NCBI GenBank assembly: GCA_036874045.1
Contig: CM072347.1
Location: forward strand, 6,264,501-6,328,500
From: Cymodocea nodosa
Lineage: Eukaryota > Streptophyta > Magnoliopsida > Alismatales > Cymodoceaceae
DNA length: 64,000 nt
Direction of reading: 5' to 3'
Every line of letters starts with the position of its first letter. Position 1 is the first letter of the stretch. Under the pieces are notes generated by a model. That model worked only from the letters and a program-made list of their open reading frames with translations. It had not been told where the DNA came from and searched no databases. This document shows positions 130 through 59,385 of the stretch, piece by piece. The translations under genes were made by a program, and so were the position numbers.

Positions 130-1139
130 TATTAGAATTGGAACGGATCGTTCAGTCAACTTTCTATGACACGATTCAAAAACACTCACCTCTAAACTCA
201 CTGAAACTGGAAGTGAAGAGTAAAAGAAGAAATAACACAATGAAGACACAGGATTTACGTGGTTCAGCAACAGCCTACGTTCACGGAGAGTTGAGGGTTC
301 TTCTATGAGCTTTGGTACAATCAACTGCAATGTTTTACAACATCATAAAGGTTTATATACTACCCAACTTAGGGTTTATAAACCTTTAATTACATACAAA
401 CCATTACAGTAGAGAAATAATGCTTCGGAGAAGGGACTCTCAATTTTAGAGCCTTATCTTCCTAACTTACCAAAATCTGCAACATTTTGAATAGTTACAG
501 ACTTAACTATCCGAAGAAATTCTTCTTTCTAACGGGCGGTACTGTAGTAGGCTAACTATCCGGAGAGATTCAGTATTTTGGACAGTTACAGACTTAACTG
601 TCCAAAAACCCACTTACTTCTCTCTCTTTGTTCTTTCGGAAGGTTCTATCGTTAACTCTCTGAAAACTACATGTCTTTCGGATAGTTACTGTCTTAACTA
701 TCTGAAAACTCACTTAAGTGTCTCTTCAGTCATTTCGGATGGTTCTGTCGTTAACCTTCCGAAAACTTATGATTTTCGGATAGTTACTACCTAACTATCC
801 GAAGATCCACTTAAGTCTCTACTTTTCGGATACTTGGCTTCTTAACTATCTAAAGATTCACTTAAGTGTCTGACTTTTGGATACTTAGCTTCTTAATTAT
901 CTGAACGTTTACTTAAGTGTCCTTTAAGTCATTCTAGATGGTTACAGCTAGTAACCCTCTGAAATCTTCTAACTTTCGGATAGTTAGTTCAAAGCCTTCG
1001 ATTGAAACTTTATTTTTAGATACTTAGGTCTGATAACCTACCGAAAATATAAATCTACCGGATACTTACTGTTAATAAGCTTCCGATTGAACCTGGACTT
1101 CTTATGGCATACTCCACACTTGTACTACTTGCCCTAACA
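130..1139 (-). repeat. C2 3' LTR (left copy)
   Basis: Pairs with 34174-35174. The right end is …CCCTAACA, followed directly by a pyrimidine-rich stretch (1140-1152) that reads as a polypurine tract on the - strand. About 500-1090 is a string of imperfect palindromes of the form GGATAGTTA…TAACTATCC, described separately. Confidence 0.88.
490..1090. repeat. String of ~12 hairpin-like GGATAGTTA/TAACTATCC units in C2 LTR
   Basis: About a dozen degenerate copies of a ~28-35 base unit, TCGGATAGTTAC, ~6 bases, TTAACTATCCGAA, follow one another with short spacers rich in CACTTAAGT. The two half-sites can pair as stems of about 9 bases with a short loop. Outer letters drift while the inner AGTTA and TAACT are best kept. 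The partner LTR carries the same string at about 34530-35125. The MYB-core-like GTTA half-sites suggest cis-regulation by analogy with repeated motifs in the tobacco Tto1 LTR; this is inference. Confidence 0.7.
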
Positions 1140-1301
1140 ATCTCCCACTTGGAGTTTAACACAATGATCGAAAGAAAAAATTAATCTCTACACTTGGCTT
1201 ATAATAATTGCAACAATTGCTCAAATAATCATCAACTCTTCATCTCCTTCTTCTTCTCAATTATTTAGGAGACCAATTAAGGCCATATAGAGCCTTAATT
1301 T
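1140..1301 (-). other. C2 polypurine tract and 3' untranslated stretch
   Basis: On the - strand the bases next to the left LTR read CCAAGTGGGAGAT, the usual copia polypurine tract. The remaining ~150 bases up to the RNase H region show no gene. Confidence 0.7.
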
Positions 1302-1801: not shown

Positions 1802-3572
1802 TGTTTGTGTTTTCCTAGCACTACACTAGAAAAACTTGGATTTGTTACTTCTATTTTTACTTAGTTAATTTATCTTTACGCCCATTCTTTCTTTTAGAAG
1901 TAAACAAACAACCTTTAATACAATTTAGATATTAATTCCAATTTGTACTTTAACTGCAAGTGCACAGTGTCTATTGTATCAGTGTGCAAGTACAGGTCGA
2001 TCCTATAGGGAATTGCTGACGAATTTAAGAAATGTTTGATTGTGAACAATTCAAATTTATATTCGATAAGCACTCCGTTGAGTTACAGTTAACTCAACGA
2101 ACTATCCTCGTGGACTTAAGTTAACTCCACGAGCCTGTCTCTTCTTTATAATACTGCTATTTACAGAGGAATTCGGTCAACCATTGGGCGATTCCACAGA
2201 TTGTAAATAACATCAATTAAGCTTTTTAATGCTAGTTAACATTAGATTTATCATTAAGCAATACTAACATTCAGATGATTCAAACAGTCACCATTAAAAT
2301 CTTTAAGTTTTTTGTACGAACCAATTTTAGTAAACTGTAAAATTAAAACTAACATAAAACAATCATAAAACTAATACATATAACATTAATCACGATACAA
2401 CACAAACAATACAACACTCAAATACAACATACAAACAAAGATAAATTGTTTTTGGTATTTTTGTTTTGATGTGAACATGGAAATGGGCGAAAGGTGAAAT
2501 GTAAAGTAATCTCACTTGATAGTAAATACTTCTAACACTACTTGCAACGCGATTACACCACTGAAAATTAAACCACTTACAATTCTATCTCCTCTCCCTA
2601 TAGAATCGCGAGTCCAGAATTGCAAGATGATCTCCTCTTCAGCATACAGGCATCAACCCGAAGCCAAGGCTAAAAGCTTTACGTTCTCCTGAAATATGAG
2701 TCGACGCTTGGTGAAAATGGCTTCCCTTCCCGCGACGTGATCACTCCTCACAATGGTTGTCAGACACTGTGTTTGGCTCGGAATCGACCTGACATCAGGC
2801 AAGTATCCTCACAGACCTCCGATGATTGGTGATTATAGTGGTGATACGATGGTTGGTGTGATACTTCGAAGAATCGTCGAACTATCTGCAGAAAGCTCGG
2901 TGCTCCTCCTCTGTATACACTGGCCGTCCATTGATCACACTTTCTTCTTTTTTTCTTCTTTTCTTTTATATTTCTTTAGTAGTAACTGCTTCTGCTTGAA
3001 TGATTGGTTGGATTTCCTTCCTTCAGATCAACAGCGATGCTTCCTTCTCCATGCACGATTGAATTCCTGCATGATACGTGCAAACGTGGTTTTTCCTTCC
3101 AACTGTCTGTTCCTACAACCGCTACAGTGGCATTTTAGAAAATAACTATAAAATACATGCAATAAAGAAATAAGCCGCTAACCTAACGCATTACCTTAGT
3201 GTATATTCGTGTAACTCAACGCGTATAGTTATGCTAACTTAACGAGTTATAACTTAAGTAAATCTACCCGATCTCGACACGTGTCAGTAGCAGTTTAAAC
3301 ATAAAATAACATTTCGGAGAGTTACAGGTCTAACTATCTGATGCTCAGATGCATTTTCAGTTCATAACTTAAGAATTTCATAGCCTGCAACTTACCGACA
3401 GTTCATAAATGTACTAAATTAACATTAATTCCCCAAAATTAAGCAGATTTTTCAATTAAAGCATATAACGGTGCAATTATAACTTAATGGCTTAATTCTC
3501 ATATGATAAGCTAAAATTATGCAATTAACCATCATTTAACCGTTAATAATATGCACTTTTTCATTCTAAACA
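1802..3572 (-). repeat. G1 3' LTR (left copy)
   Basis: Starts TGTTTGTG and ends CTAAACA on the + strand, and pairs with 28993-30779. It contains the CTGCAAGTGCACAG motif followed by a TACAGGTCGATCC stretch that is common in plant Athila/Tat LTRs, one GTTGAGTTA…TAACTCAAC palindrome near 2070-2100, and a C/T-rich stretch near 2935-2990. The open reading frame at 2753-3145 recurs in every related LTR and is not considered a gene. Confidence 0.88.
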
Positions 3573-5267
3573 CTTCCCCCATACCTAAATTTTGCTAGTC
3601 CCTTAGCAAACTAAGATCTAATTAATTGGTCTTTCAAAAAGTGCTAGAATTAATTCTTCCCCTTTTGTTTTTTTTCTTCTGTTTAGCATAAACATATATT
3701 CTGTATGTTTTAGTAATCAACCTGCAAAGATATTTAGAATATATGTAAATTACGTACAAAGTATATCATCTTCATATAGGCGTTAATTATATTATAGTTT
3801 GTTCTTCTTTTCATCATCTGTAATCCTGAATTTTCCAATAAGTTTTCTAGAAGAAATTTCAACAACATACGAATCAAAGTACAATCCAATTCAATCTGAT
3901 TAAGACAAGTAGAATAAAGAATTGTATTTCCATTAAACAACTTCAAAAGTCAATTCCAGATTCATATTTCAGCAATTCTAGATAACAGAAAATATACTCG
4001 ATTGATAAGATATCTGTATTTCACAAAACACTTGTATCTTTTCAGAACAGTATATGTTTTTTTTTTTTTTTTGTACTTTAAAAGTTAATTTGACAAGCTT
4101 GAATCATACAAGAGCTTTCTAATGTACCCATGTAACGAGCTTTCAGTCAACAATCCCAGATCTGATCAGGATCTTAGGTTGCCAGATTTTCAGAGTCCTT
4201 TTTCAGGTCAACAATTCTTACATACCTATCTGCTCAAGTACAAAAGGCTCGCGATCAAACAAGTCAATAAACTCTCAAAGTTTTTTTTTAAAAAAAAAAA
4301 AATAAATGCACACACAAAACAAAGCATTAATCACATACTGTATATGCACGTATTTCATTAATACAGATGTAGTAAAACACCAATCTCATATAATCCTGCT
4401 TCTATCATTTACTAAAAATATGAATCCATAACAATAAGCTCAAACTTTATTTGTAGTTTAATAAGATCTACACATAAATCATTCTACAAGTTCAATCAGT
4501 CAAAGTAAATGTATCTTTCATCATATATGTTTCATTTAATCTAGAATTCATATCTCACCTCATTCAGGATTTCAGATAATTTTCTGATTAAGCATTAAAT
4601 ATTCTGATTTCATTTTAAAATCGTGAAACTGTTAAACTCATGAAATTCAGAAAAATCATAATATAACATTCAAGCAATTTATAAAAATTTTGCAGTCTCA
4701 ATTATCGGATAGTTACAGCAAGTTCATAAAAATTTTTCAATTTTCTCAAAACTTTGCAGTACCATTTTAATTCCTTTAATTAACAAACTTACATGACTGT
4801 TACTTTAATTACCTCCCCCCCATACCTACATTTTGCATTGTCCTCAATGTAAAAGATTTGACAATAAGTACAGTAATTGTAGCAGGCATAAATAAAGTTT
4901 TGTTTAATTTAAAATTCAGGATAAGTAATTGGTTACATACCTTGTTCCATTTGTATCTCTTTCTGCATATTCCGATTTTTGATTCTGAAAAACTTTTCAT
5001 TCCCAGATAAATACAGAATATAAAATAAAATAACATTTAATAGATATTAATAAATCAGTGTCTTGTGTGGAACCCAGGCTCCTATGCCTTTGGTGGCTCA
5101 CAAGCAAGCCAGTTGGTTTCCCAGAACAGATACCAACAAACTGGATTGATATTTTGTTTTGTTTGTTTGTTTTTTTTATAAAATGAACATGAAAAACTTC
5201 AAAATTCCTTTTTTTTTTTTCTAAAAATAAATGCAAAATACACATGTTAAACACACAAAATCACAGC
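3573..5267 (-). other. G1 3' untranslated region, no gene seen
   Basis: Begins with a polypurine tract next to the LTR (reads GGTATGGGGGAAG on the - strand, 3573-3585). The rest is AT-rich, with a poly-T run near 4055-4072 and a T9/A13 run near 4280. A 200-base module at 4081-4280 recurs in the copia element C1. A second pyrimidine-rich CCTCCCCCCCATACC stretch lies near 4811-4826 and resembles another polypurine tract. Bases 5050-5150 are less AT-rich and may be a coding remnant I do not recognise. Confidence 0.6.
4081..4280. repeat. 200-base module shared with C1 (copy at 20233-20432)
   Basis: Starts AAAGTTA and ends ACTCTCAAAG in both places, with the same length (200) and about 91% identity counted by eye. 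One copy is in a gypsy 3' untranslated region and the other in a copia element between gag and its 3' ORF, in the same orientation relative to the element. Weaker similarity seems to continue on the left side (3710-4080 versus 19870-20232). Confidence 0.75.
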
Positions 5268-6406: not shown

Positions 6407-6545
6407 TTGTCGATTTTGTAAAATAAAAATAAAAATTTAGCAAAGATAAAAATTAACATAACTACTGCACACCCTCGTGGAGTTAAGGCATAACTCAACG
6501 GACTAAGTTTGTTGAGTTAAAAATTAACTCTACGATACTATTAAC
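6407..6545. other. Spacer with palindromic motif between F-box copy and gag
   Basis: Contains GTGGAGTTAAGGCATAACTCAACGG and a second GTTGAGTTA…TTAACTC pair (6478-6535), the same hairpin-like motif found in the LTRs, here inside the internal region. No gene. Confidence 0.6.
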
Positions 6546-7579: not shown

Positions 7580-9160
7580 TGTAGGATCATATGGCTACAC
7601 AAGAGGGGGGTGAATTGTGTATCTTTAATATTTTCTGAAATATAATTGAAACTTTAAAACTCAAAAATAAGTGGAGACATTGTTTTCATAAAATCATTTT
7701 TATTCAAGGTTTCAATTACAATATACAATTCAATTCTCCTTAGAAATTGTAGATGCAATTATATTTCGATACCATGTATCATCTAAACAATTTCATAACT
7801 ACAAACAGAGAAAACTAATTTGCGGAATTTAAAACTTTTCTCCCTATTCGAGATCTTTCTTCTTCTTCTTTTTCTTCTTCAGCAATTCTTCAGTGACGAA
7901 TATCTTGTCTTTTCATGCTTCACCGAATTTGCTTTCTTCTGATACTTCAAATCTTCAGTGACGAAAATCTTACCTTTTTATGCTTCACTGAACTTTCTTC
8001 CACTTGAGAGATTTTCCCCAAGAAGGTGTTTTTGATCCCTGAAAAAGATTTTTCTTTTGGTGTGCAGTGATGGTTTGATCCTTAAAAAGATTTTTCATTT
8101 TGTGTGCAAGGATAGTTTGATCAACGAGAATTCTATGCCTTTTATACTGTATCTTCATTTCATGCATATCCTTCACGTTTAACCACTACCAGTTTTCCAC
8201 TTCTCCACGACTTTTCTTTTTTCTTCATAGAAACACACATGTTCTAACCCACGTTTATATTTCAAATTTTCTTTAATCATCAGTCCTGGATCTCTGAAAA
8301 ATTTCCTGCAAAATAAACTTTCTCGTCCAAAAATTTTTCATCAGTGTAATAAGAAGTCGTTACTTTAATGTTAACTAAACGAGTAACACAAGTATATATA
8401 TAACTTAACGTTTCTAACTTAACGAGTTCCTCATGTGCCATTTCACGTGACAAGTATTGTAGTTAACTCAACGAACTAAGTCCGTGGTGTTATGCTATCT
8501 CAACGAACCATCTCTGTTGTGTTATGATAACTCAACGAACCAGTAATAAACAAATGTTTTTATAATAAGAATTTTACCACGTGCAAAAATAACAACTTAA
8601 GTTTATAATGCTAACCTAATGCGTTGCCTTAGTGTTCAATATAGCAACTCAATATGTTTAGTTATGTTAACTTAACGAGTTAAACATGTGCACCTCACGT
8701 GATACAATACAACATTCGTAACTTATAATTTCACTACGTGTATAATACTAACTTAACGAGTTCGTCTCTTCTTTTACTCACTAACTTAACGAGTTATCAT
8801 GTGACCTATTTTAACCTTTAAGCCTCTAACTTAACGAGTTCTCACGTGACCTCTATACAAACAAAACTCTAACTTAACGAGTTGTCTAAACGTGCACTGT
8901 TCATGATACAGAAGATATAACATTAAAACATATCATGCTTTTTAATAAAAACACACGTTAACTTAACGTTTAGCTAAATGAGAAATTAATGCAACGAAAC
9001 GACTAGTTATTAACTTCAGATCCAATACAGACAAGTATTTATATCAGTAAGCTTTTTTTGTATTAATTGATGATTTTAATTTCTTTTCACAAGCAATAGT
9101 AATTGAGTAAATATGATTATTTTCATTCATCATACATCATCAAAACAAAAATACTCAACA
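7580..9160 (-). repeat. C1 3' LTR (left copy)
   Basis: Starts TGTAGGATC and ends ATACTCAACA; pairs with 21141-22718 and with the C4 LTRs. The half near the start is C/T-rich (TTCTTCTTC around 7860-7890). The other half (8345-8975) is a motif array. Confidence 0.88.
8345..8975. repeat. Array of ~12 TAACTTAACGAGTT units with CACGTG motifs in C1 LTR
   Basis: A degenerate TAACTTAACGAGTT (or TAACTCAACGAAC) recurs about a dozen times over 630 bases. Between the copies are repeated CACGTG or ACGTG cores (for example near 8440, 8580, 8695 and 8845), the plant G-box/ABRE core. The same array is in the other C1 LTR (about 21920-22535) and in C4 (about 43600-44340). Motif presence is seen; a role in stress- or ABA-responsive transcription is inference. 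Confidence 0.7.
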
Positions 9161-10885: not shown

Positions 10886-11291
10886 GTATAAATTAGAATA
10901 GAGTAGTATAGTCTATTGAACCTTGTTGTTTTATTTTTCTTTCCTTAATATTGATGCATTGATATCACTTCTGAAATCATGTGGAACTTGTGTGCATGTT
11001 ATAATTGAATGAGTTGATAGATTTACAAGTAAAGAAATTGATTTACATCACCATTTTCCACTACAAATTGCCTTGAAATTGCATGATTTGTGAGCTTGTG
11101 TTAACTTTGATTATTCTACATTCACATGTCATTAATTTACTGAAGTATACCTAAGAGCTTGAAGAACAAGTTGAGTAATAGTTGATTAAGTCTTAAACAC
11201 AATCCTAGTGGAAGAATGACCTGTATTTGCCATGTACACCAAAAGAACTGTGCACTTGCAGTAAAGCTTGAGCTAAAAATATAGCTCAACA
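10886..11291 (-). repeat. Right arm of 0.4-kb inverted repeat
   Basis: Reverse complement of 9776-10183, ending …TAGCTCAACA. It abuts, without any duplication I can see, a G1-type LTR that is already 180 or so bases into its sequence (at AGTACAGGTC). Confidence 0.85.
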
Positions 11292-13858
11292 AGTACAGGT
11301 CAATCTCATAGAGAATTGAGCAAGAATTATGTATTATTCTGTTTTTAATAATGGAATTTATATATTCAGTAAGCACTCCATTGAGTTATAGCTAACTCAA
11401 CGAACTAACCTCATGGAATTGAATTAACTCAACGAAGCTATCTATCCAGTTTAATACTGCTATTTACAAAGAATTCGGCCAACCATTGGACAGTTCCACA
11501 AATTGTAAATAACATCAATTAAGCTCTTTAATGCTAGTTAATATTAGATTTATCATTCAGCAACACTAACATTCAGATATTTCAAATAGTAACCATTAAA
11601 ATCTTTAAGTATTAGGAACGATTCAATTTCAGTAAACTGTAAAACTATTTTCTATTTTCTAAATCAAACAAATATGAAACATTCAAAACACTAACAATGA
11701 TAACATTAATCACAATACAAAACAAACAATACAACACTCCAATACTAACTATAAACACAGATAAGTTGTTTTTAGTATTTTTGTTTTGATATGATCAGGA
11801 AAATGGGCGAAAGGTGAAATGTAAAAGTAATCTTTATCGATAGTAAAAACTTTATCGATAGTAAAAACTTCTGTCACTACATGTGACACGATTACATCAC
11901 TGAAAATTTAACCACTTACAATTCTGTCTCCTTTCCCTATAGAATCGTGAGTCCAGAATTACAAGTTGATCTCCTCTTCAGCATACTAGCATCAACTCGA
12001 AACCAAGGCTAGAAGCTTTACAATCTCTTGAGATATGAGTCGGTGCTTGGTGAAAATGGCTTCCCTTCCCACGACATGATCACTCCTCACAATGGTTGTC
12101 AGACACTGTGTTTAGCTCAGAATCGACCCGACATCAGGAAAGTATCCTCACAGACCTCTGATGGTTGGTGATTATGGTCATGGTGGTGATGGTAGTGTGG
12201 AACTTCCGGGAACTTTCGTCGCTACCTGCAATTAGCGTAGTCCTCCTCCTCTGCACACACATTGGCCACCCTCTTCTTCGTTTTTTCTCCTTTTCTTTTA
12301 TATTTCTTAGTAGTAACTGCTTCTGCTTCGATGATCAATTGGATTTCCTTCGTTCATATCAATGATGGTGATTTCTTCTTCCTTCCATGAGCGATTTCCT
12401 ACATGATACGTGCAATCGTGGTTTTCCTTCGAATGTCATGTTTTCATAACCGCTATAGCGGCATATTAGAAAATAACTGGTTTGTGAAGTTATAGATAAC
12501 TCAACAGACTTACTTCGTTGATTTAACTATAAAACACGTGTACTAAAGAAATAAGCTGCTAACCTAACTCATTACCTTAGTGTGTATTCATGTAACTCAA
12601 CGCGTACAGTTATGCTAAGTTAACGAGTCATACATGTGCATCTCATGTGATATACTAAAGCATTTAAATTCAACATGTGTCCTCCTCCTCTGCACACACA
12701 TTGGCCACCCTCTTCTTCGTTTTTTCTCTTTTTCTTTTATATTTCTTAGTAGTAACTGCTTCTGCTTCGATGATCAATTGGATTTCCTTCGTTTATATCA
12801 ATGATGGTGATTTCTTCTTCCTTCCATGAGCGATTTCCTACATGATACGTGCAATCGTGGTTTTCCTTCGAATGTCATGTTTCCGTAACCGCTATAGCGG
12901 CATATTAGAAAATAACTGGTTTGTGAAGTTATAGATAACTCAATAGACTTACTTCTTTGATTTAACTATAAAACACGTGTACTAAAGAAATAAGCTGCTA
13001 ACCTAACTCATTACCTTAGTGTGTATTCATGTAACTCAACGCGTACAGTTATGCTAAGTTAACGAGTTATACATGTGCATCTCATGTGATATACTAAAGC
13101 ATTTAAATTCAACACGTGTCCTCCTCCTCTGCACACACATTGGCCACCCTCTTCTTCATTTTTTCTCCTTTTCTTTTATATTTCTTAGTAGTAACTGCTT
13201 CTGCTTCGATGATCAATTGGATTTCCTTCGTTCATATCAATGATGGTGATTTTTTCTTCCTTCCATGAGCGATTTCCTACATGATACGTGCAATCGTGGT
13301 TTTCCTTCGAATGTCATGTTTCCGTAACCGCTATAGCGGCATATTAGAAAATAACTGGTTTGTGAAGTTATAGATAACTCAACAGACTTACTTCGTTGAT
13401 TTAATTATAAAACACGTGTACTAAAGAAATAAGCTGCTAACCTAACACATTACCTTAGTGTGCATTCATGTAACTCAACGTGTACAGTTATACTAAGTTA
13501 ACGAGTTATACATGTGCATCTCATGTAATATACTAAAGCATTTAAATTCAACACGTGTAATCTAGGAAATTATAAAATATTCTTTAAGCATTTAAAACAT
13601 AATTGTCTAGTACATTAAACATAACTCTTCGAAATAACAGAAAATTTGGATACTAAAGAGTTTCATAGCCTGCAATTTACCGACAGTTCATAAATGTACT
13701 AAATTAATGCTAATTTCTTGGAATTATGCAGATTCTTTCGTTAAAGCATATAATAGTGCAATTATAACATAATGACTTAATTTTCATATGATAACTAAAA
13801 ATTATGTAATTAACCATCATTTAATCGTTAATATTATGCACTTTTTCGTTCTAAACAC
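11292..13858 (-). repeat. Partial G1-type gypsy LTR with internal triplication
   Basis: Similar to the G1 LTR from its TACAGGTC motif to its CTAAACA end (13858), so the outer ~180 bases at the left are not present. It includes the TAACTCAACG palindrome near 11390-11430 and three copies of a 439-base unit (12241-13557). Confidence 0.8.
12241..13557. repeat. Tandem triplication, 3 x 439 bases
   Basis: Copies start at 12241, 12680 and 13119, each with TCCTCCTCCTCTGCACACAC and each ending at an ACACGTGT or ACATGTGT site. They are nearly identical (a few single-base differences). The unit includes the C/T-rich stretch, a GATACGTGCAATCGTGG stretch and the TAACTCAAC motif, so it triples a presumably regulatory part of the LTR. 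Confidence 0.9.
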
Positions 13859-14169
13859 TTTCCCCATACTTAAATTTTGCTAGTCCCTTAGCAAACTAAG
13901 ATCTAACTAATTAGTCTTTCTAAAGTGCTAGATTTAATTCTTCATTTCGTTCTTCTTCAGAATAATAAATTAGATTACTATATAGATAATCTGTATGCTT
14001 TAGTAATCTATTTTAACTTTGTTTTCTCCTCTTCAACCTGCAAATATATTTAGAATATATGTAAATTACATACAAAATATATCAGCATCACATAGGTGTT
14101 AATTATATTATCATTTTTTTTTCTTTTCAGCATTTGTCATCTTGAATTTTTTAATATGATTTCCAGAAT
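13859..14169 (-). other. Gypsy polypurine tract and 3' untranslated fragment in E
   Basis: Starts CTTTCCCCATAC, and continues TTTTGCTAGTCCCTTAGCAAACTAAG, matching the G1 stretch next to its 3' LTR (3573-3850). No gene. Confidence 0.7.
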
Positions 14170-15190
14170 TGTAGGATCCTATGGCTACACAAGAGGGGGG
14201 TGAATTGTATATTTTTAATATTTTCTGAAATATAATTGAAACTTTAAAACTCAAAAACAAGTCGAGATATTGTTTTCATAAAATCATTTTTATTCAAGGT
14301 TTCAATTACAATATACAATTCAATTCTCCTTAGGAATTGTAGATGCAATTATATTTCGATACCATGTTTCATCTATACAATTTCATAACTACAAATAGAG
14401 AAAACTAATTTGCGGAATTTAAAACATTTCTTCTAGTTTGAGATCTTCCTTCTTCTTCTTCTTTCTTTTTCAGCAATTCTTCAGTGACGAATATCTTGTC
14501 TTTTTATACTTCACCGAATTTGCTTTCTTCTGATACTTCAAATCTTCAATGATGAAAATCTTACCTTTTTATGCTTCACAGAATTTTCTTCCACTTAAGA
14601 GATTTTGCCCGAAGAGGTGTTTTTAATCCCTAAAAAAGATTTTTCTTTTAGTGTGTAGGAATGGTTTGATCCTTGAAAAGATTTTTCATTTTGTGTGCAA
14701 GGATGGTTTGATCAACGAGAACTCTATGCCTTTTATACTGTATCTTCATTTCATGCATATCCTCCACATTTAATCACTACTAGTTTTCCACTTCTCGACA
14801 TCTTTTCTTTTTCCTTCATCGAAACACACATGTTCCAACCCACGTTTATATTTCGAATTTCCTTTAATCATCAGTCTTGGATCTCTAAAAAATTTCCTGC
14901 AAAATAAACTTTCTCATCCAAAAATTTTTCAACAGTGTAATAAGAAGTCGTTACTTTAATGTTAACTAAATGAGTAACACAAGTATATATATATATAACT
15001 TAACGTTTCTAACTTAACGAGTTCCTCATGTGTCATTTCACGTGACAAGTACTGTAGTTAACTCAACGAACTAAGTCTGTGGTGTTATGCTAACTCAACG
15101 AACCAGCTTAACCTTTCTTTCAGAAGGTTAAACAATAACTCATCGAAAACAGTTTAAGTTTCGGATAGTTACAGATGTAAGTCACTGAAA
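14170..15190 (-). repeat. Partial C1/C4-type copia LTR in E
   Basis: Starts TGTAGGATCCTATGGC like the C1 LTR and follows it through the C/T-rich half and the first TAACTTAACGAG motifs. It then follows the C4 variant (CTTAACCTTTC…GAAAGGTTAA and a GGATAGTTAC hairpin). It ends before the LTR terminus; its last ~115 bases are also the first part of the 775-bp tandem unit. Confidence 0.72.
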
Positions 15191-17186
15191 AACTCTTTAT
15201 ATTATAAAACTAGTGAGACACGTGTCAAAGGTTAATTTTTTTCTTTATATTCTATGAATAAGATGCCATAGATCTAGGAGGGCCAACAAGGTGTTGGCAT
15301 GTCCTCTTCTTTAAAGTTTAGTCCACCAACTTTTGATTCTTTACATCTTCTTTGGTCTTTTGCATTAAGCTCCTCCCATATATATGTTACCTACAATTAA
15401 TGGAAGTTGAACTCCAAGAGACGTTAGCCAACATAGGACATGCAAAATAAATCAATGTGTTCCATGTAAAATTATATCCAATGGGGGATGCACTTGTTAA
15501 TTAAATTTCTATATTACACTATATTTCAAGACTTATATTACCCATAATTAATATCATTTATCCATCATAGATATATAATATCATGCAAAATTACTTATAA
15601 AATTCATTAAAAATGGGCAAAATTAAAGCTTGAACACCCCCCCACACTTAAACTTTGCTAGTCCTCTGGCAAAATTTAAGAAGAAAAGATTAAGGAACCC
15701 CTTTTAAACAAACAAACACAATAAAGAAAATTAAGGCAAATTAAATTCTCATTAAGTAATGCAACAATACTTATAGATAATCTCCACTCACAAGGTGAGT
15801 TCTTGTAATGGTGAGGAATATAGAATAGACATCTAATGCCAACCTAATAGTCTGTGGTGTTATGCTAACTCAACGAACCAGCTTAACCTTTCTTTTAGAA
15901 GGTTAAACAATAACTCACCGAAAACAGTTTAAGTTTCAGATAGGTACAGATGTAAGTCACTGAAAAACTCTTTATATTATAAAACTAGTGAGACACGTGT
16001 CAAAGGTTAATTTTTTTCTTTATATTCTATGAATAAGATGCCATAGATCTAGGAGGGCCAATAAGGTGTTGGCATGTCCTCTTCTTTAAAGTTTAGTCCA
16101 CCAACTTTTGATTCTTTACATCTTCTTTGGTCTTTTGCATTAAGCTCCTCCCATATATATGTTACCTACAATTAATGGAAGTTGAACTCCAAGAGACGTT
16201 AGCCAACATAGGACATGCAAAATAAATCAATGTGTTCCATGTAAAATTATATCCAATGGGGGATGCACTTGTTAATTAAATTTCTATATTACACTATATT
16301 TCAAGACTTATATTACCCATAATTAATATCATTTATCCATCATAGATATATAATATCATGCAAAATTACTTATAAAATTCATTAAAAATGGGCAAAATTA
16401 AAGCTTGAACACCCCCCCACACTTAAACTTTGCTAGTCCTCTGGCAAAATTTAAGAAGAAAAGATTAAGGAACCCCTTTTAAACAAACAAACACAATAAA
16501 GAAAATTAAGGCAAATTAAATTCTCATTAAGTAATGCAACAATACTTATAGATAATCTCCACTCACAAGGTGAGTTCATGTAATGGTGAGGAATATAGAA
16601 TAGACATTTAATGCCAACCTAATAGTCTGTGGTGTTATGCTAACTCAACGAACCAGCTTAACCTTTCTTTCAGAAGGTTAAACAATAACTCACCGAAAAC
16701 AGTTTAAGTTTCGGATAGTTACAGATGTAAGTCACTGAAAAACTCTTTATATTATAAAACTAGTGAGACACGTGTCAAAGGTTAATTTTTTTCTTTATAT
16801 TCTATGAATAAGATGCCATAGATCTAGGAGGGCCAATAAGGTGTTGGCATGTCCTCTTCTTTAAAGTTTAGTCCACCAACTTTTGATTCTTTACATCTTC
16901 TTTGGTCTTTTGCATTAAGCTCCTCCCATATATATGTTACCTACAATTAATGGAAGTTGAACTCCAAGAGACGTTAGCCAACATAGGACATGCAAAATAA
17001 ATCAATGTGTTCCATGTAAAATTATATCCAATGGGGGATGCACTTGTTAATTAAATTTCTATATTACACTATATTTCAAGACTTATATTACCCATAATTA
17101 ATATCATTTATCCATCATAGATATATAATATCATGCAAAATTACTTACAAAATTCATTAAAAATGGGTAAAATTAAAGCTTGAACA
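15075..17186. repeat. Tandem array, 2.7 copies of a 775-base chimeric unit
   Basis: Units start at 15075, 15850 and 16625 (at GTCTGTGGTGTTATGC); the third stops after 562 bases at the LTR end CTTGAACA. Each full unit joins ~115 bases of copia LTR to ~445 bases of another family's LTR end, then a C8-rich polypurine-tract complement and ~210 bases of its untranslated region. Copies differ at only about ten sites in 560, so the array is younger than the elements around it. Confidence 0.88.
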
Positions 17187-21140: not shown

Positions 21141-22718
21141 TGTAATATCGTATGGCTACACAAGAGGGTGGTGAATTGTGTATCTTTAATATTTTCTGAA
21201 ATATAATTGAAACTTTAAAACTCAAAAACAAGTCGAGACATTGTTTTCATAAAATCATTTTTATTCAAGGTTTCAATTACAATATACAATTCAATTCTCC
21301 TCAGAAATTGTAGATGCAATTATATTTCGATACCATGTATCATCTAAACAATTTCATAACTACAAATAGAGAAAACTAATTTGCGGAATTTAGAACTTTT
21401 CTCCCTATTTGAGATATTTCTTCTTCTTCTTTTTCTTCTTCAGCAATTCTTCAGTGATGAATATCTTGTCTTTTCATGCTTCATTGAATTTGCTTTCTTC
21501 TGATACTTCAAATCTTCAGTGACGAAAATCTTACCTTTTTATGCTTCACTGAACTTTCTTCCACTTGAGAGATTTTCCCCGAGAAGGTGTTTTTGATCAC
21601 TGAAAATGATTTTTCTTTTGGTGTGCAGGGATGGTTTGATCCTTGAAAAGATTTTTCGTTTTGTGTGCAAGGATAGTTTGATCAACGAGAATTCTATGCC
21701 TTTTATACTGTATCTTCATTTCATGCATATCCTTCACGTTTAACCACTACCAGTTTTCCACTTCTCCACGTCTTTTCTTTTTCCTTCATCGAAACACACG
21801 TTCTAACCCACGTTTATATTTCGAATTTTCTTTAATCATTAGTCTTGAATCTCTGAAAAATTTCCTGCAAAATAAACTTTCTTGTCTAAAAATTTTTCAT
21901 CATTGTAATAATAAGTCGTTACTTTAATGTTAACTAAACGAGTAACACAAGTATATATATAACTTAACGTTTCTAACTTAACGAGTTCCTCATGTGCCAT
22001 TTCACGTGACAAGTACTGTAGTTAACTCAACGAACTAAGTCTGTGGTGTTATGCTATCTTAACGAACCATCTCCATTGTGTTATGATAACTCAACGAACC
22101 AGTAATAAACAAATGTTTTTATAATAAGAATTTTACCACGTGTAAAAATAACAACTTAAGTTTATAACGCTAACCTAACGCGCTGCCTTAGTGTTCAATA
22201 TAGCAACTCAATGCGTTTAGTTATGTTAACTTAACGAGTTAAACATGTGCACCTCACGTGATACAATACAACGTTCATAACTTATAATTTCACCACGTGT
22301 ATAACACTAACTTAACGAGTTCGTCTCTTCTTTTACTCACTAACTTAACGAGTTATCACGTGACCTATTTTAACCTTTAACCCTTTAACTTAAGGAGTTC
22401 TCACGTGACCTCTATACAAACAATACTCTAACTTAACGAGTTGTCTAAACGTGCACTGTTCATGATACAGAAGATATAACATTAAAACATATCATGCTTT
22501 CAATAAAAACACACGTTAACTTAACGCTTAGCTAAATGAGAAATTAATGCAACGAAACGACTAGTTATTAACTTTAGATCCAATACAGACAAGTATTTAT
22601 ATTAGTAAGCTTTTTCTGTATTAATTGATGATTTTAATTTCTTTTCACAAGCAATAGTAATTGAGCAAATATGATTATTTTCATTCAGCACACATCATCA
22701 AAACAAAAATACTCAACA
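21141..22718 (-). repeat. C1 5' LTR (right copy)
   Basis: Starts TGTAATATCG, ends ATACTCAACA; pairs with 7580-9160. The motif array lies at about 21920-22535. Confidence 0.88.
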
Positions 22719-23081: not shown

Positions 23082-24240
23082 AAACAAATAGCAGAAGGTT
23101 AATTACATACCAGTCTGTAGCTTTCCATTCTATAAATATTTGTTGTCGGATGAAGGTTGAATCAGCTGCTTCTCCTTCCAGTTCCTCCAACGCTATCTCC
23201 TTTCTTTTAAAAGTGTTGGTAACTCGTAAATAACATTCTGTTTCATATATATACTACGCATCCATAAAGTGAATAAATCTCGTTGCAAGAACGTGGCTTG
23301 CAACATGCATCGTGGTTCCTATTTTTATGGGTACGTGTACCACTACTAATTTCAAATTTTGGTAACCGCTAAACCGACGAAGTTTCGTTTGTGGTTAAAA
23401 GAATAACCGTTCTGCTTAATCCACGAACTAACCTCGTTGAGTTACAGATTACTCAACGGAGCACAGTCGGTTACTGTTGCTAACTCCACGGAGTAACTTC
23501 GTTGAGTTACAGATAACTCTACGGAGTGACCTTATATTATATTATTGACCTCGTGGAGTTATGTTTAACTCAACGAACTTACTTCGTTGAGTTAACACTT
23601 CGCAACATCTAAGTTTCACTATCGTAAGTTTTCTATTCTATTTTTTTATCAGTTTAACCGATACTACGCTTCGGTCAGACCTAAATATTTTTTATTCTTT
23701 TACTTTTCTTTCGGTTGGACTGATACTATGTTTCAGTAAAACCAATATTTTTTTCTGAAAATTAATATACAATTTTTTTTCCTGTTTAACCAATACTATG
23801 CTTCGGTCAAACCTAAATATTTTTTATTTTTTTACTTTTCTTTCGGTTGAACCGATACTATGTTTCGGTAAAACCAATATTTTTTTTTGAAAATTAATAT
23901 ACAATTTTTTTTCCGGTTTAACCGATACTATGCTTCGGTCAGACCTAAATATTTTTTATTTTTTTACTTTTCTTTCGGTTGAACCGATACTATGTTTCGG
24001 TAAAACCAATATTTTTTTCTGAATATTAATATACAATTTTTTTCCGGTTTAACCGATACTACGCTTCGGTCAGACCTAAATATTTTTTAATTTCCCGGTC
24101 ATACTGATGGATCTAGTCGGTTGAACCGCAACTATTTTTATGTTTTATATATATTTTTAATGTTGTTGTTTTTTTTTTATATATAAATAAACATAAAAAC
24201 TGATTTCTTACTAAATAAAGCTCGAGAAGTCCTCTACTCT
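23082..24240 (-). other. G1 stretch between integrase and capsid gag
   Basis: No gene. 23400-23610 carries several GTTGAGTTAC/TAACTC(A/T)ACGGA palindromes. 23640-24110 is a ~132-base tandem repeat. Similar CGGTT…AACCG sequence follows integrase in G2 (56120-56460) and G3 (59160-59300), so this is the 3' untranslated region of the pol block. Confidence 0.7.
23640..24110. repeat. ~132-base minisatellite, about 3.5 copies
   Basis: GTTTAACCGATACTATGCTTCGGTC recurs at 23652, 23784, 23916 and 24047 (spacing 132, 132, 131). Each unit holds two half-units, one TTTAACCG/CGGTCAGACC and one CGGTTGAACCG/CGGTAAAACC, separated by T-rich runs. Confidence 0.88.
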
Positions 24241-28992: not shown

Positions 28993-30779
28993 TGTTTGTG
29001 TTTTCCCAGCACTACACTAGAAAAACTTGGATTTGTTACTTCTATTTTTACTTAGTTAATTTATCTTTACGCCTATTCTTTCTTTTAGAAGTAAACAAAC
29101 AACCTTTAATACAATTTAGATATTAATTCCAATTTGTACTTTAACTGCAAGTGCACAATGTCTATTGTATCAGTGTGCAAGTATAGGTCGATCCCATAGG
29201 GAATTGCTGATGAATTTAAGAAATGTTTGATCGTGAACAATTCAAATTTATATTCAATAAGCATTCCGTTGAGTTACAGTTAACTCAACGGACTAAGTTC
29301 GTTGAGTTATGGCTAACTCAACGGACTATCCTCGTGGACTTAAGTTAACTCCATGAGCCTGTCTCTTCTTTATAATACTGCTATTTACAAAGGAATTCGG
29401 CCAACCATTGGGCGATTCCACAGATTGTAAATAATATCAATTAAGCTTTTTAATGCTAGATAACATTGGATTTATCATTAAGCAATACTAATATTCAAAT
29501 GATTCAAACAGTCACCATTAAAATCTTTAAGTTTTTTATACGAACCAATTTCAGTAAACTGTAAAATTAAAACTAACATAAAACAATCATAAAACTGATA
29601 CAGATAACATTAATCACGATACAACACTCAAATACAACATACAAACAAAGATAAATTGTTTTTGGTATTTTTATTTTGATGTGAACATGGAAATGGGCGA
29701 AAGGGGAAATGTAAAGTAATCTCACTTGACAGTAAATACTTCCAACACTACTTGCAACGCGATTACACCACTGAAAATTAAACCACTTACAATTCTGTCT
29801 CCTCTCCCTATAGAATCGTGAGTCCAGAATTGCAAGATGATCTCCTCTTTAGCATACAGGCATCAACCCGAAGCCAAGGCTAAAAGCTTTACGTTCTCCT
29901 GAAATATGAGTCGGTGCTTGGTGAAAATGGCTTCCCTTCTCGCGACGCGATCACTCCTCGTAGTGGTTGTCAGGCACTGTGTTTGGCTCGGAATCGACCC
30001 GACATCAGGCAAGTATCCTCACAGACCTTCGATGATTGGTGATTATGGTGGTGATACGATGGTTGGTGTGATACTTCGGAGAATCGCCGAACTGTCTGCA
30101 GAAAGCTCGGTGCTCCTCCTCTGTATACACTGGTCGTCCATCGATCACACTTTCTTCTTTTTTTCTTCTTTTCTTTTATATTTCTTCAGTAGTAACTGCT
30201 TCTGCTTGAATGATCGGTTGGATTTCCTTCCTTCAGATCAATGGCGATGCTTCCTTCTCCATGCACGATTGAATTCATGCGTGATACGTGCAAACGTGGT
30301 TTTTCCTTCCAACTGTCTATTCCTGCAACTGCTACAGTGGCATTTTAGAAAATAACTATAAAATACATGCAATAAAGAAATAAGCCGCTAACCTAACATG
30401 TTATCTTAGTGTATATTCGTGTAACTCAACGCATACAGTTTTGCTAACTTAACGAGTTATAACTTAAGTAAATCTACCAGATCTCGACACGTGTCAACAG
30501 CAGTTTAAATATAAAATAACATTTCGGAGAGTTACAGGTCTAACTATCTGATGCTCAGATGCATTTTCGGATACTTAAGAATTTCACAACCTGCAACTTA
30601 CCGACAGTTCATAAATGTACTAAATTAACATTAATTCCCCAAAATTAAGCAGATTTTTCAATTAAAGCATATAACAATGCAATTATAACATAATGGCTTA
30701 ATTCTCATATGATAAGCTAAATATTATGCAATTAACCATCATTTAACCGTTAATAATATGCACTTTTTCATTCTAAACA
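28993..30779 (-). repeat. G1 5' LTR (right copy)
   Basis: Starts TGTTTGTG, ends CTAAACA; pairs with 1802-3572. It contains two GTTGAGTTA…TAACTCAACGG units (29268-29325) where the left LTR has one. The 149-codon frame at 29906-30355 recurs in related LTRs and is not counted as a gene. Confidence 0.88.
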
Positions 30780-30784
30780 CTCAG

Positions 30785-34156: not shown

Positions 34157-34173
34157 TCGGCTCTGATACCAGT
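34157..34173 (-). other. C2 primer-binding site
   Basis: Reads ACTGGTATCAGAGCCGA on the - strand, adjacent to the LTR: the methionine initiator tRNA site of copia elements. Confidence 0.85.
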
Positions 34174-35174
34174 TGTTAGAATTGGAATGGATTGTTCAGT
34201 CAACTTTCTATGACACGATTCAGAAACACTCACCTCTAAACTCACCGAAACTGGAAGTGAAGAGTAAAAGAAGAAATAACACAATGAAGACATAGGATTT
34301 ACGTGGTTCAGCAACAGCCTACGTCCACAGAGAGTTGAGGGTTCTTCTTCGACACAATCAATTGCAATGTTTTACAACATCATAAAGGTATATATACTAC
34401 CCAACTTAGGGTTTATAAACCTTTAATTACATACAAGCCATTAGAGTAGAGAAATAATGCTTCAGAGAAGGGACTTTCAATTTCAGAGCCTTATTTTCCT
34501 AACTTAGCGAAATCTACAACATTTTGGATAGTTACAAACTTAACTATTCGAAGAAATTCTTCTTTCTAACGGGTGGTACTGTAGTAGGCTAACTGTTCGA
34601 AGAGATTTGGTATTTCAAATAGTTACAGACTTAACTGTCTGAAAACCTACTTCTCTCTCTATCCTTTCGGAAGGTTCTATCGTTAACTCTCCAAAAAACT
34701 GCATGTCTTTCGGATAGTTACTACTATCTTAATTATCCGAAAACTCACTTAAGTGTCTCTTTAGTCATTTCGAAAGGTTCTGCAGTTAGCCTTCCGAAAA
34801 CTTATGATTTTCGGATAGTTACTGCCTAACTATTTGAAGATCCACTTAAGTCTCTACTTTTCGGATACTTGGCTTTTTAACTATCTGAAGATCCACTTAA
34901 GTGTCTGACTTTCAGATACTTAGTTTCTTAACTATTTGAATGTCCACTTAAGTATCCTTTAAGTCATTCCAGATGGTTACAGCTAGTAACCCTTTGAAAT
35001 CTTTTAACTTTCGGATAGTTAGTTCAAAGCCTCCGACTGAAACTTTATTTTCGGATACTTAGGTCTGATAACCTATCGAAAATATAAATCTACCAGATAC
35101 TTACTATTAATAAGCTTCCGATTGAACCTGGACTTCTTGTGGCATACTCCACACCTGTACTACTTGCCCTAACA
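34174..35174 (-). repeat. C2 5' LTR (right copy)
   Basis: Starts TGTTAGAATTGG, ends CCCTAACA; pairs with 130-1139. The palindrome string lies at about 34530-35125. Confidence 0.88.
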
Positions 35175-36330
35175 ATTATAGCTATTGGAAAAATAGGATG
35201 GAGTGTTTTCTCAAGAGTATTGATGTAAAACTCTAGAGAATAGTTGTACATGGTACACCACTACCAATCAGTCATGAAAGTGATTGGTTTGAGGAGGATG
35301 AAAGAATCATCCAGATGGATGCTTGTGGGTTAAACTCAATCTACCATGCATTGACTGGTGAACAGTATAACAAAATATTTGCCTGTAAATCTTCTCATGA
35401 GGCTTGGAAAACTCTTCAAATCACATATGAAGGAACCAGCCAAGTAAAAGATACAAAGATTAGCATTTTGTTAAGAAAATATGAATTATTCAATATACTT
35501 GATAAAGAAAGTATTACTGAAATGTTTTCTAGATTCATAGAAATTATAAATGAACTAAGAGGTCTTGGAAGGGACTTTTCTAATCGTGAATAGGTACAAA
35601 AGATCCTAAGAAGCCTGATAGTTGAATGGAAGCAGAAATCTACTTCCATACAAGACTCAAAAGATTTAAACAATTATTCAATTGAAGATCTGTTGGGAAA
35701 TCTTCTTGCTCATGAAGTTCAGATGAAGGAATGGAAAGAAGAAGAAGGAGTCATTGAAAGAAAGGCTAAGAAAAAGAAAGAACTAGCCTTTCCTTCAACA
35801 AAAGACCAACCAAGCTCGGATGATGAGACAAGGAGGCAAAACTAGCTCCTCAATATCAAAAGTCCCTACATGCTACAAGTGCAAAAAATTAGGACACATT
35901 CAACTTTACTGTCCTTTTCTACAGGAGGAGGACAAACAAAAATGGAAGAGGAAGAATAAGAAGAAAATGGCCTTGAAAGCCACATGGGTTGACAGTAGTT
36001 CATCCAGTAGTTCATCAGACTTAGAGGAAGAGGCATCTGCAAATGTGTGCTTTACTACACAAGAGGTATGTTCTACATCTCCTGATTACTCAGAAAAGGA
36101 AAATGATGATTTAGATGTAGATAGTCTTCTTTGTACAGTAGATAAGTTATATGTAAAATGTAAAAATTATAAGAAAGAATTAAAGAGTTTAAATTCTTAT
36201 CTAGAAGATGTCTTTGTTGAATTAGAAAAAGCCCTAGTGGATAATAGAGAATTAAAAACTAAAATGGATAGCTATAGTTGTAAAAATTTTGATCTGAAAT
36301 AAGAAAATAAAAATCTATTATCTAAAATTA
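35175..36330 (+). pseudogene. C3 gag, main part (fossil)
   Basis: SIRE-type gag: ALTGEQYNKIFACKSSHEAWKTL, TYEGTSQVKDTKISILL, a zinc knuckle CYKCKKLGHIQLYC (about 35873-35914), a KKKMALKATW stretch, then a run of serines and acidic residues. C3 is interrupted by C2 just upstream. Confidence 0.86.
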
Positions 36331-43000: not shown

Positions 43001-43412
43001 CAAGCTCAATAGAAGAAAGCCTTTGAGATCAAATCATCTTTAGCATATACAGACTCAATTTTTAGAAGCTCATCATGCACTCAACTCTAATACTTTCAAG
43101 CAAGTGTTTTACTAAAGTACATGGATCAAAAACTTCAAAGAAAGATTAGTTGGAGCTATGACCTGAAAGCTCAATCAGATTGGTTGGTTCTTGCTTTAAC
43201 CTTAAAGCAAGTGATTGTAAGTTTGTGAAAGTTTAGTGAAGCCCAAGTATCCCTTAGGGGTGGACTAGCCATTAATGGTGAACCACCTAAAAATCTTGTG
43301 TGTATTACTTTTATCTTGTGCTTGCTAATTCTTCATATCAATCAACCATTAAATTGTTAAGAAACAAATTATTACCATTCACCCCCCTTTGGTAAGCCAT
43401 CAGGTCCTAACA
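40032..43412 (+). repeat. C3 3' LTR, split by a gypsy LTR
   Basis: Starts TGAAAGGACCTC and ends GGTCCTAACA. About 40150-40690 holds ~9 units of the AGTTA…TAACTATCCGAAA hairpin motif. 40694-42717 is a G1-type gypsy LTR. The remaining ~700 bases end in the TTCACCCCCC stretch common at copia LTR ends. Confidence 0.8.
40694..42717 (+). mobile_element. G4: solo gypsy LTR (G1 family) inside the C3 LTR
   Basis: Starts TGTTTAGAATGAAAAAGTGC, the sense-strand start of the G1 LTR, and follows it to a CTGGGAACCAATACA end. No internal gypsy sequence adjoins it. It is ~2.0 kb against ~1.79 kb in G1. I see no clear target-site duplication (TGACT on the left, AGTTC on the right), so the right end is uncertain by some bases. 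Confidence 0.75.
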
Positions 43413-43425
43413 GTTAGTCCATTGA
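43413..43425. other. Short spacer between C3 and C4
   Basis: Thirteen bases (GTTAGTCCATTGA) lie between the C3 LTR end and the C4 LTR start. This is the only sequence in the left 61 kb outside a recognised element; it could be flanking genomic DNA. Confidence 0.5.
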
Positions 43426-52145: not shown

Positions 52146-52682
52146 TGTTGAGTATTTTTGTTTTGATGATGTGTGTTGAATGAAAATAATCATATTTGCT
52201 CAATTACTATTGCTTGTGAAAAGAAATTAAAATCATCAATTTATACAGAAAAAGCTTACTGATATAAATACTTGTCTGTATTAGATCTGAAGTTAATAAC
52301 TAGTCGTTTCGTTGCATTAATTTCTCATTTAGCTAAACATTAAGTTAACGTGTGTTTTTATTGAAAAGCATGATATGTTTTAAAGTTATATCTTCTGTAT
52401 CATGAACAGTGCACATTTAGACAACTCGTTAAGTTAGAGTTTTGTTTGTATAGAGGTCACGTGAGAACTCGTTAAGATAGAGGCTTAAAGGTTAAAATAG
52501 GTCACATGATAACTCGTTAAGTTAGTGAGTAAAAGAAGAGACGAACTCGTTAAGTTAGTGTTATACACGTGGTGAAATTATAAGTTACGAATGTTGTATT
52601 GTATCACGTGAGGTGCACATGTTTAACTCGTTAAGTTAAGATAACTAAACGCATTGAGTTGCTATATTGAACACTAAGGCAA
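52146..52682 (+). repeat. C4 3' LTR, first part
   Basis: Matches the first ~540 bases of the 5' LTR, including the motif array, up to AACACTAAGGCAA. Gypsy gag-pol sequence of G2 then begins abruptly, with no LTR end or duplication. Confidence 0.86.
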
Positions 52683-58900: not shown

Positions 58901-59110
58901 CCACTTAAGTCACTTTCCCAGAACATGACACGTGTCCTCAGCTATTTTATAAATAAAAAGAGATTTCGGAGAGTTACAAGTCTAACTATTCGATGCCTAG
59001 CTACAATTTCGGATAGTTAGAGATAACTCACCGAAAGTTCACTTAAAAATAAGCTCGTTGACTAACTTAAGACTCAACGGAGTAAGCTCGTTGAGTTAAG
59101 CATAACTCAA
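58650..59110. repeat. Mixed array of GGATAGTTA and GTTGAGTTA hairpin units in G3
   Basis: Repeated AACTATCCGATGCTCAG…TTTCGGATAGTTA units (58667-59030) followed by CTCGTTGAGTTAAGCATAACTCAACGGA (59090-59115). This places both motif classes, otherwise typical of copia and gypsy LTRs respectively, side by side in one gypsy element. Confidence 0.68.
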
Positions 59111-59385
59111 CGGACTCCCTGTACAAACAGATATAATAATAAAAATACTATAGATAATAGTTTTCTATTTTTTTTACCGATTTAACCGATACTATGTTTC
59201 GGTTAGACATTATTTTTTTTTGAAAATTAATATACATAATTTTTTATGTTCCTGTCATATAGATGGATCCAATCGATTGAACCGCAACGATTTTTATATT
59301 ATATATATATATATATATTTTTAATATTTTATATATATATATATATATATTTTTTTTATTATATAAACATAAAATTGATTTCTTA
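59111..59385 (-). other. G3 3' untranslated stretch
   Basis: One TTTAACCGATACTATGTTTCGG unit (59182-59205) where G1 has three to four, then long (TA)n runs (59297-59352). No gene. Confidence 0.7.

Follow-up and report, generated by a model that had tools for sequence, protein, structure and literature searches.

A 64,000-nucleotide stretch of Cymodocea nodosa DNA, here called the window, contains strings of short units in which AGTTA faces TAACT, located in the long terminal repeats (LTRs) of unrelated retrotransposons. These strings raise the question of why copia and gypsy elements should carry the same box. A preliminary description of the window suggested a common binding factor, a common RNA structure, or exchange between families. 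The observation of hairpin units is confirmed with corrections and lies far beyond chance, and a common DNA-binding factor appears to be the best fit of the three causes.

Plant LTR retrotransposons are nested within one another in the window (Table 1). Boxes are borne by a copia family (E1), two Sirevirus-type copia families (C3 and S) and a gypsy family (G), which may be of the Athila/Tat type. E1 is on the minus strand and is nested within C3, which is on the plus strand. The two E1 LTRs (34173-35176 and 133-1141) are 90.7% identical, ATTAT flanks the insertion when read by eye, and the primer site adjoining the 5' LTR is one that we take to be of the tRNA-Met type. The stretches at 490-1090 and 34530-35125, previously treated as separate, are the two LTRs of one copia insertion, as indicated by orientation, ends and flanks. 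E1 has CTCCCACT at the position where Sireviruses carry AGGGGGAG, and poly-C is absent from its LTR end as read; these two missing hallmarks are the basis for regarding E1 as a putative non-Sirevirus copia.

C3 and S are of the Sirevirus type according to hallmarks given in the available part of a published survey (PMC2829016). C3 has four AGGGGGAG tracts (39845-40022) and an RVT_2 domain (38363-38875), and its 3' LTR is interrupted by a gypsy LTR (40694-42712), around which inspection by eye revealed no matching target-site duplication. S is represented by five LTR stretches. Its 5' LTR (43424..45114) is accompanied by a primer site, TGGTATCAGAGC, at 45118 and a gag ORF at 45309-46244, for which 70 protein matches have at most 51% identity. 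The G family also comprises five LTR stretches, and Pfam domains of gypsy-type RT, RNaseH and integrase occur at 24757-26677. The best 120 of 7990 protein matches to this RT have 58-72% identity, and the named organisms are plants. A clear TATA (TATAAATAG, 42347) is found right before the gypsy start-region boxes in Gd only.

Table 1. Positions of LTRs, paired boxes and the shared U3 segment in the window
Feature	Position	Strand	Remarks
E1 3' LTR	133..1141	-	box array ~484-1090, TATA-like ~353-359; half-sites at LTR 74-670, TATA at 783
E1 5' LTR, same insertion	34173..35177	-	box array ~34521-35125
C3 3' LTR, first part	40034..40693	+	array 40160-40640, 7 facing core pairs
C3 LTR, second part	42712..43414	+	follows the gypsy LTR insertion; additional paired box 42776-42809, TATA ~42941
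S 5' LTR (Sd)	43424..45114	+	half-sites 43577-44323 mostly same direction, chosen TATA ~44549
S LTR copy	7580..9160	-	96% to 21141-22718, ~92-95% to 43426-45113
S LTR copy, partial	14170..15199	-	sequence comparison within window
S LTR copy	21141..22718	-	sequence comparison within window
S LTR copy, partial	52146..52682	+	sequence comparison within window
Gypsy G LTR Ga	1802..3574	-	93% to 28993-30781; purine tract read alongside
Gypsy G 5' LTR Gc	28993..30781	-	adjoins ORFs for gypsy RT/RNaseH/integrase (24757-26677), with more ORFs up to 28834
Gypsy G LTR variant Gb	11290..13860	-	has 439-bp triplication
Gypsy G LTR Gd	40694..42712	+	inside C3 LTR
Gypsy G LTR Ge	57234..59170	-	array 58590-59120, both arm types
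Gypsy paired boxes near start region	29263..29359	-	CGTTGAGTTA and CTCGTGGACTTA types; equivalents 42377-42407, 57536-57599
Paired boxes 3' of gypsy pol	23434..23594		similar clusters 6475-6535, 56485-56575
Homologous U3 segment, gypsy copy (Gd 400-552)	41093..41245	+	162-column alignment, 72% to S 43815-43976
Homologous U3 segment, S copy (Sd 392-553)	43815..43976	+	counterpart of gypsy 41093..41245

The repeated unit is larger than the AGTTA core, and consists of the half-site TCGNNNAGTTA. The top over-represented 10-mers on both strands include CGTTGAGTTA (35 versus 0.1 expected), CGTTAAGTTA (27 versus 0.1) and CGGATAGTTA (19 versus 0.1), all three being instances of CGNNNAGTTA. The plus strand of the window has 14 copies of GGATAGTTA, 8 of TAACTATCC, 14 of GTTGAGTTA, 31 of TAACTCAAC and 6 of TAACTTAACGAGTTA. 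When all 400 AGTTA sequences of both strands are considered with any preceding letters, T, C and G occupy positions -6, -5 and -4 in 54, 45 and 45% of cases, and the three positions after TCG are less fixed. Within 107 half-sites having at most one mismatch, these three letters (NNN) are most commonly TTG (23), GAT (22), TGG (11) and TTA (10); the position matrix of these 107 is sharper, although the choice of sites for the fixed letters of the half-site accounts for its invariant positions.

The AGTTA/TAACT core is constant, as the preliminary description stated. Its further claim that only the outer arm differs does not hold, because TCG is shared across families. Arm types are also not split by family: both the G class of CGG.. 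arms (CGGAT, CGGAG, CGGTG) and the T class of CGT.. arms (CGTTG, CGTTA, CGTGG) are found within single LTRs, namely gypsy Ge and S-type Sd. The coordinates that it gave for gypsy and E1 units (E1 was then called C2) are correct. The C3 stretch at 40150-40690 has one exact TAACTATCC and no exact GGATAGTTA, its units being diverged, and TAACTTAACGAGTTA, presented as the string of families labelled C1 and C4, is present in gypsy LTRs too (3235, 30445).

Several other repeats occur in the window. A 439-bp unit is present in three tandem copies (12240-13558) inside a gypsy LTR, with CCGCTATAGCGG in each, and a 775-bp tandem unit (15074-17186, 98-99% identity) combines a portion of an S LTR with other sequence. 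An inverted repeat of 421 bp and 98% identity is located at 9776-10196 and 10873-11291, its copies being about 0.7 kb apart. Tandem repeats 3' of the gypsy pol contain CGGTTNAACCG palindromes (five copies plus one, at 23629-24128 and 56300), which are similar to Sirevirus RM boxes in the literature, for example CGGTCTGACCG. An F-box ORF on the minus strand (6044-6436, Pfam E 2e-11) has paired half-sites (6475-6535) just upstream on its strand; a homology search for this ORF scored 0 of 8 candidates.

Half-sites and hairpins are both in excess within the window. Hairpins with an arm score of at least 9 and a loop of 3-14 number 42, whereas three local dinucleotide shuffles give 11, 10 and 6. 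The U3 stretches contain CGNNNAGTTA 6 times in E1a, 7 in C3, 10 in Sd, 4 in Gd, 11 in Ge, 6 in Gb and 3 in Gc; close to the gypsy start there are 4 more, and 23380-23640 has 7. None of 500 dinucleotide shuffles reaches the count in any of these seven U3 stretches, at the gypsy start or at 23380-23640, and CGNNNAGTTA is absent from seven internal coding-type control stretches (20.8 kb). Strict facing pairs taken alone are weak in Sd (one, reached by 19 of 500 shuffles) and Gc (one, reached by 5 of 500), and the count of AGTTA alone in Gc is reached by 40 of 500. Because the half-site was defined on the same window as was tested, these enrichments are exploratory.

The boxes are not limited to this locus. 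A scan of the host assembly (374.6 Mb, 28 contigs) found 421 exact 24-bp GGATAGTTACNNNNTTAACTATCC boxes and no occurrence of the reversed pattern, and independent insertions of the same families carry the array. The expectation in the preliminary description that the core would be enriched beyond a few copies is thus borne out. Among 28 sampled box loci (the first 8, plus 20 picked among 100 listed of the 421), 15 are E1-type, 12 are gypsy-type, and one, L057, is neither. For 20 of the 28 loci (11 gypsy, 8 E1 and 1 neither) the position of the box itself was determined, and the other 8 were assigned by locus content, including two (L055 and L056) in which both E1 and gypsy sequence is present.

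Twenty evenly spaced 10-kb samples of contig C1 contain 160 half-sites versus 20 in reversed form. These 160 comprise 127 in sequence that matches window LTRs, 15 in other window-like sequence and 18 remaining, 11 of which make up a single array in locus L072. The nine samples with window-type LTRs have 157 copies of CGNNNAGTTA versus 12 reversed. In the 11 samples (110 kb) without these LTRs, CGNNNAGTTA is not enriched (3 versus 8 reversed). In this sample of contig C1, the half-site is a feature of transposable elements. A generic host promoter element is unsupported by the 11 LTR-free samples, all of them from contig C1, whether genic or not.

Searches beyond this genome gave no matches for either of two palindromes in IMG/VR. 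One palindrome matched 33 stretches of prokaryote genomes, 26 of them archaeal by title, and these were set aside as unrelated. In one archaeal MAG (L018), the palindrome occurs twice (383-410 and 586-613) as a terminal-type hairpin by the end of an apparent transposase-type gene; this likeness is probably a coincidence.

Facing AGTTA..TAACT pairs occur at gaps of 3, 4, 5, 6 and 7 nt in 7, 16, 5, 9 and 2 cases, with 0.63 expected for each, such that gaps of 3-7 account for 39 facing pairs versus about 3 expected. There are none at gaps of 8-15, and 4 in all at 8-20. Further peaks correspond to the overlapping form AGTTAACT (16) and to gaps of 30, 31 and 36 (8, 5 and 10), which are probably distances between neighbouring units. 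Facing pairs are many in E1, C3 and Ge; C3 has 8 facing core pairs and E1a has 7, and Sd has 4 pairs though it has 18 half-sites. The claim that AGTTA always faces TAACT fails in S, in which 38 of 45 half-sites (at most one mismatch) point in one direction (Sa 12 of 13, Sc 12 of 14, Sd 14 of 18).

Two other short sequences accompany the half-sites. In 9 of 23 cases, ACTTAAGT is located exactly 6 nt outside a half-site, and these cases are in copia E1 (both LTRs) and in gypsy Ga, Gc and Gd; a further four copies overlap half-sites and two are at a distance of 1 nt. Of 35 CACGTG copies, 31 lie at most 60 nt from a half-site, compared with 20% for random positions. The U3 stretches of E1 and Gd lack CACGTG, so that some arrays do without it.

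Arrays precede the TATA in E1 and C3, and precede the chosen TATA in S. In C3, half-sites span LTR positions 178-802 and the TATA is at about 889. In S they span 152-891, with the chosen TATA at 1012-1126 and other TATA-like strings at 120, 599 and 868-872. Gypsy boxes are found downstream of a TATA as well. The ratio of observed to expected CpG is 0.9-1.5 in arrays, whose motif itself contains CG, versus 0.13-0.29 in four internal controls, and array G+C is 0.33-0.43.

We consider it probable, from these sequence patterns, that the arrays are DNA-level cis-regulatory U3 boxes that are read by a shared protein. A single sequence-specific protein, or one family of such proteins, would bind the half-site TCGNNNAGTTA, in many cases with one molecule on each of two facing half-sites spaced by 3-7 bp. 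Half-sites would be combined with the neighbouring ACTTAAGT and CACGTG palindromes. Binding would switch on the downstream TATA promoter, or keep it unsilenced. Unrelated families may exploit the same factor mostly through arrays that grew independently and, in a single instance, through a U3 segment that passed between a gypsy element and a Sirevirus-type copia. A bolder proposal, to be held only tentatively, is that one trans-acting factor serves unrelated copia and gypsy lineages that have converged on and traded arrays restricted to transposable elements, and that their activity or escape from silencing is co-regulated. The AGTTA/TAACT core presumably resembles MYB sites, and a MYB protein, as put forward in the preliminary description, would be one candidate for the factor. 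MYB24 is among many factors named in the available part of a survey of binding sites in plant LTRs (PMC11656987).

Some observations count against a shared protein. Variation of the loop between 3 and 7 nt is unusual for a rigid dimer, and a typical host factor would have genic sites too, yet no excess of these was found in the sample. Also, covariation of the arms is not required by a pure half-site model. The outer arms match their own partner at 266 of 450 positions, versus 223.4 (sd 8.7) in array-wise permutations, and none of 5000 permutations reaches this value; the test used 50 non-redundant pairs of 78, with one copy per family and 28 dropped, and the C3 pair at 42776 was counted in the Gd group. 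For the NNN letters, covariation is seen when pairs are permuted within arrays (p 0.003) and is lost inside a single arm class (p 0.33), where positions -4 to -9 retain it (p 0.006). In 15 E1 LTR sequences (2 from the window and 13 of 15 fetched, 2 having been dropped for length), there are 1087 Watson-Crick cells versus 1072.5 (sd 6.5) under permutation, and 33 double changes versus 25.9 (sd 3.2; 4 of 300 permutations), in statistics that ignore kinship. The covariation implies that symmetry is favoured or renewed.

Such symmetry could instead reflect nucleic-acid hairpins, with U3 transcripts forming rows of stem-loops that supply the production of small RNAs or control the RNA. We regard this alternative as unlikely, although the sharp window of 3-7 nt gaps, with zero at 8-15, is in its favour along with the covarying arms. 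Predicted folding is strong in E1 and Ge (z of -7 to -9), as the idea of RNA structure in the preliminary description would have it: on the two strands, z scores against 60 shuffles are -7.4/-8.5 for E1a, -9.1/-9.2 for Ge, -10.3/-8.8 for 23425-23605 and -3.8/-3.1 for C3, compared with -1.5 to 0 for three controls. However, the antisense strand folds about as strongly, with no clear preference for the transcript strand, and the S array hardly folds (-1.9/-1.1) despite 15 relaxed half-sites. Mismatches between arms in the window show no strand bias, with 69 G.T versus 71 A.C and 186 other in 847 cells (77 of 78 pairs); the 15 E1 LTR sequences have a mild lean to G.U (109 versus 85 A.C). The lack of covariation of NNN inside an arm class likewise argues against hairpins. 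Structure at the transcript level is therefore not upheld in the window.

Published work on maize is close to this hairpin and small-RNA reading. According to the available parts of two reports, the LTRs of maize Ji, Opie and Giepum have a palindrome-rich regulatory region, as do the LTRs here, and the palindrome regions show an excess of small RNAs (PMC5311732, PMC10760457), being described as small-RNA hotspots (PMC5311732). The maize palindrome is also the commonest motif of structured regions in Helitrons, which offers a precedent for sharing among unrelated transposable elements (PMC10760457). The maize palindromes have another sequence (CACCGGACNNNGTCCGGTG), and the available text of these reports does not mention sharing with gypsy elements (PMC5311732, PMC10760457).

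The absence of strand bias and the mainly same-direction half-sites of S suggest that recognition of DNA by a protein fits best. Moreover, the direct repeats and weak folding of S imply that the half-site, not the hairpin, is what all families have in common. The hairpin as the sole explanation is rejected on the strand symmetry in the window and on the S array. We take the arrays to be dyads at the DNA level; in some families a hairpin role is possible. The E1 LTR pair differs by 79 substitutions, of which 74 are transitions, and differences are more frequent in half-sites (0.113; NNN 0.179) than outside (0.065). This indicates decay after insertion, with no sign that resident copies were kept.

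Another form of protein recognition would be by an anti-silencing or silencing factor that targets the boxes and acts in trans on unrelated families; such a factor could be encoded by a transposable element and similar to VANC. The confinement of half-sites to LTR-bearing samples of contig C1 is consistent with this idea, as are the short motif and the non-coding, CpG-rich arrays. There is also a precedent: VANC6 motifs (AGTTGTCC/AGTTGTAC) of VANDAL elements are found in the unrelated element AT9TSD1, which responds, according to the available part of the report (PMC5735166). Like the arrays here, VANC targets are arrays of short motifs in non-coding DNA of transposable elements and are shared with an unrelated element; they differ in being tandem arrays of DNA transposons that are bound by the transposons' own protein (PMC5735166). 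However, a position before the TATA is equally that of a plain enhancer, and we judge a dedicated factor of this kind to be quite unlikely.

Exchange between families, the third suggested cause, probably accounts for one case. Gypsy and S U3 regions align over 74-162 nt at 72-84% identity. When motifs are kept and spacers are shuffled, the alignments of Gd-Sd, Gc-Sd, Gb-Sd and Gd-Sc beat all shuffles (0 of 100 reach each), in comparisons of plus strands only; the segment is not seen in Ge, where 60 of 100 shuffles reach the score. With motifs masked, the G-S match is the sole one between families at E 0.01, besides that of a gypsy LTR to an internal cluster. Two superfamilies thus have one U3 segment of common descent, for which exchange is the simplest account; a transfer, in whichever direction, is what the alignment suggests.

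It is very unlikely that exchange alone explains the sharing, with every common box descending from transferred LTR segments. Apart from the clearly homologous G-S segment, 9 of 11 other pairs are within the motif-kept shuffles of same-strand alignments (at least 6 of 100), and the E1 and C3 sequences, when masked, match no other family at E 0.01. E1b-C3 (2 of 100) and E1a-Ge (4 of 100) are borderline. These two pairs, and the shuffle tests of L057 with C3 (1 of 60) and of L072 with Sd (2 of 60), reveal some similarity beyond motifs that counts against independent growth under a shared factor. L057 gives 5 of 60 with Sd and at least 9 of 60 with the others, and the slice of L072 includes a gypsy LTR body, so its 0 of 60 with Gd is no test of boxes. 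Exchange as the sole explanation is rejected on the masked BLAST comparison and the spacer shuffles, and most other pairs do not need it. The remaining sharing amounts to a common motif vocabulary, with E1-C3 and E1-Ge borderline.

The two loci just mentioned extend the set of arrays. In L057, about 420 bp hold 7 facing core pairs, in an array at 1219-1755, and the sequence has no BLAST match to the LTR families of the window at E 1e-15; what reads like a gypsy primer-binding site is located about 0.6 kb from its array. Direct half-site repeats of the CGGATAGTTAA type occur at 1937-2290 of L072, in the apparent start of another copia LTR.

A neutral origin, whereby functionless palindromes are made and kept symmetric by template switching in replication and by tandem growth, suits the covarying arms and the E1 spacers that look duplicated by eye, but is extremely improbable, because it leaves unexplained why unrelated families share the same half-site and the 6-nt composite spacing, and why the boxes are placed before the TATA and are absent from internal DNA.

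A shared protein acting on U3 boxes can also be set beside known systems. The 13-bp LTR repeats of Tto1 and the boxes of Tnt1 are repeated U3 elements that act as enhancers, and presumably the arrays here are alike in this respect. Sirevirus RM boxes are described, in the available part of the report, as high-copy, CpG-rich palindromes that precede the TATA within the U3 half of the LTR; many elements have additional copies ahead of the ENV gene (Bousios et al. 2010, PMC2829016). That part gives one RM per element, all built on a CGG-CCG core, regards RMs as specific to Sireviruses and lacking in classic copia, and identifies no binding factor and no common site for a single factor (PMC2829016). 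The arrays here are like RM boxes in U3 place and palindromy, and in CpG richness as far as the observed-to-expected ratio goes, their G+C of 0.33-0.43 being low beside the CpG islands that RM boxes form; the Osr9 RM, TTTTCGGACWTRTCCGAAAA, is close to a CGG-class box such as TTTTCGGATAGTTA...TAACTATCCGAAGA at 773-805 (PMC2829016).

Dyad symmetry of the RM type, with facing pairs and covarying arms, is found in E1, C3, Ge and Gc but not in S, and the G class fits the CGG-CCG core whereas the T class does not. RM copy number is at least 8 per element; counted per LTR, C3 reaches this number in facing pairs, and E1a and Sd have fewer. Placement in the upper LTR half before the TATA is shared by E1, C3 and S. 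Unlike RM boxes as described in that source, one half-site with an inner AGTTA is common here to Sireviruses, another copia and a gypsy; one class has CGT rather than CGG; and the half-sites of S are mainly direct. The restriction to Sireviruses thus does not extend to these boxes, which are present in gypsy G and E1.

Among the open-licence papers listed for these subjects, none is recognisable by title or abstract as describing the half-site TCGNNNAGTTA or a box shared by copia and gypsy, and none of the listed papers that match the motif letters is about LTRs by title. The arrays are a real, genome-wide, cross-family form of a known kind of LTR box, with a mechanism that we infer. A half-site common to copia and gypsy, together with a traceable segment, makes the identity of the protein that reads the boxes testable, and likewise the joint switching of unrelated elements. 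The shared segment suggests that promoter segments of LTRs are able to pass from one superfamily to another, a point of importance where families are defined by LTR similarity.
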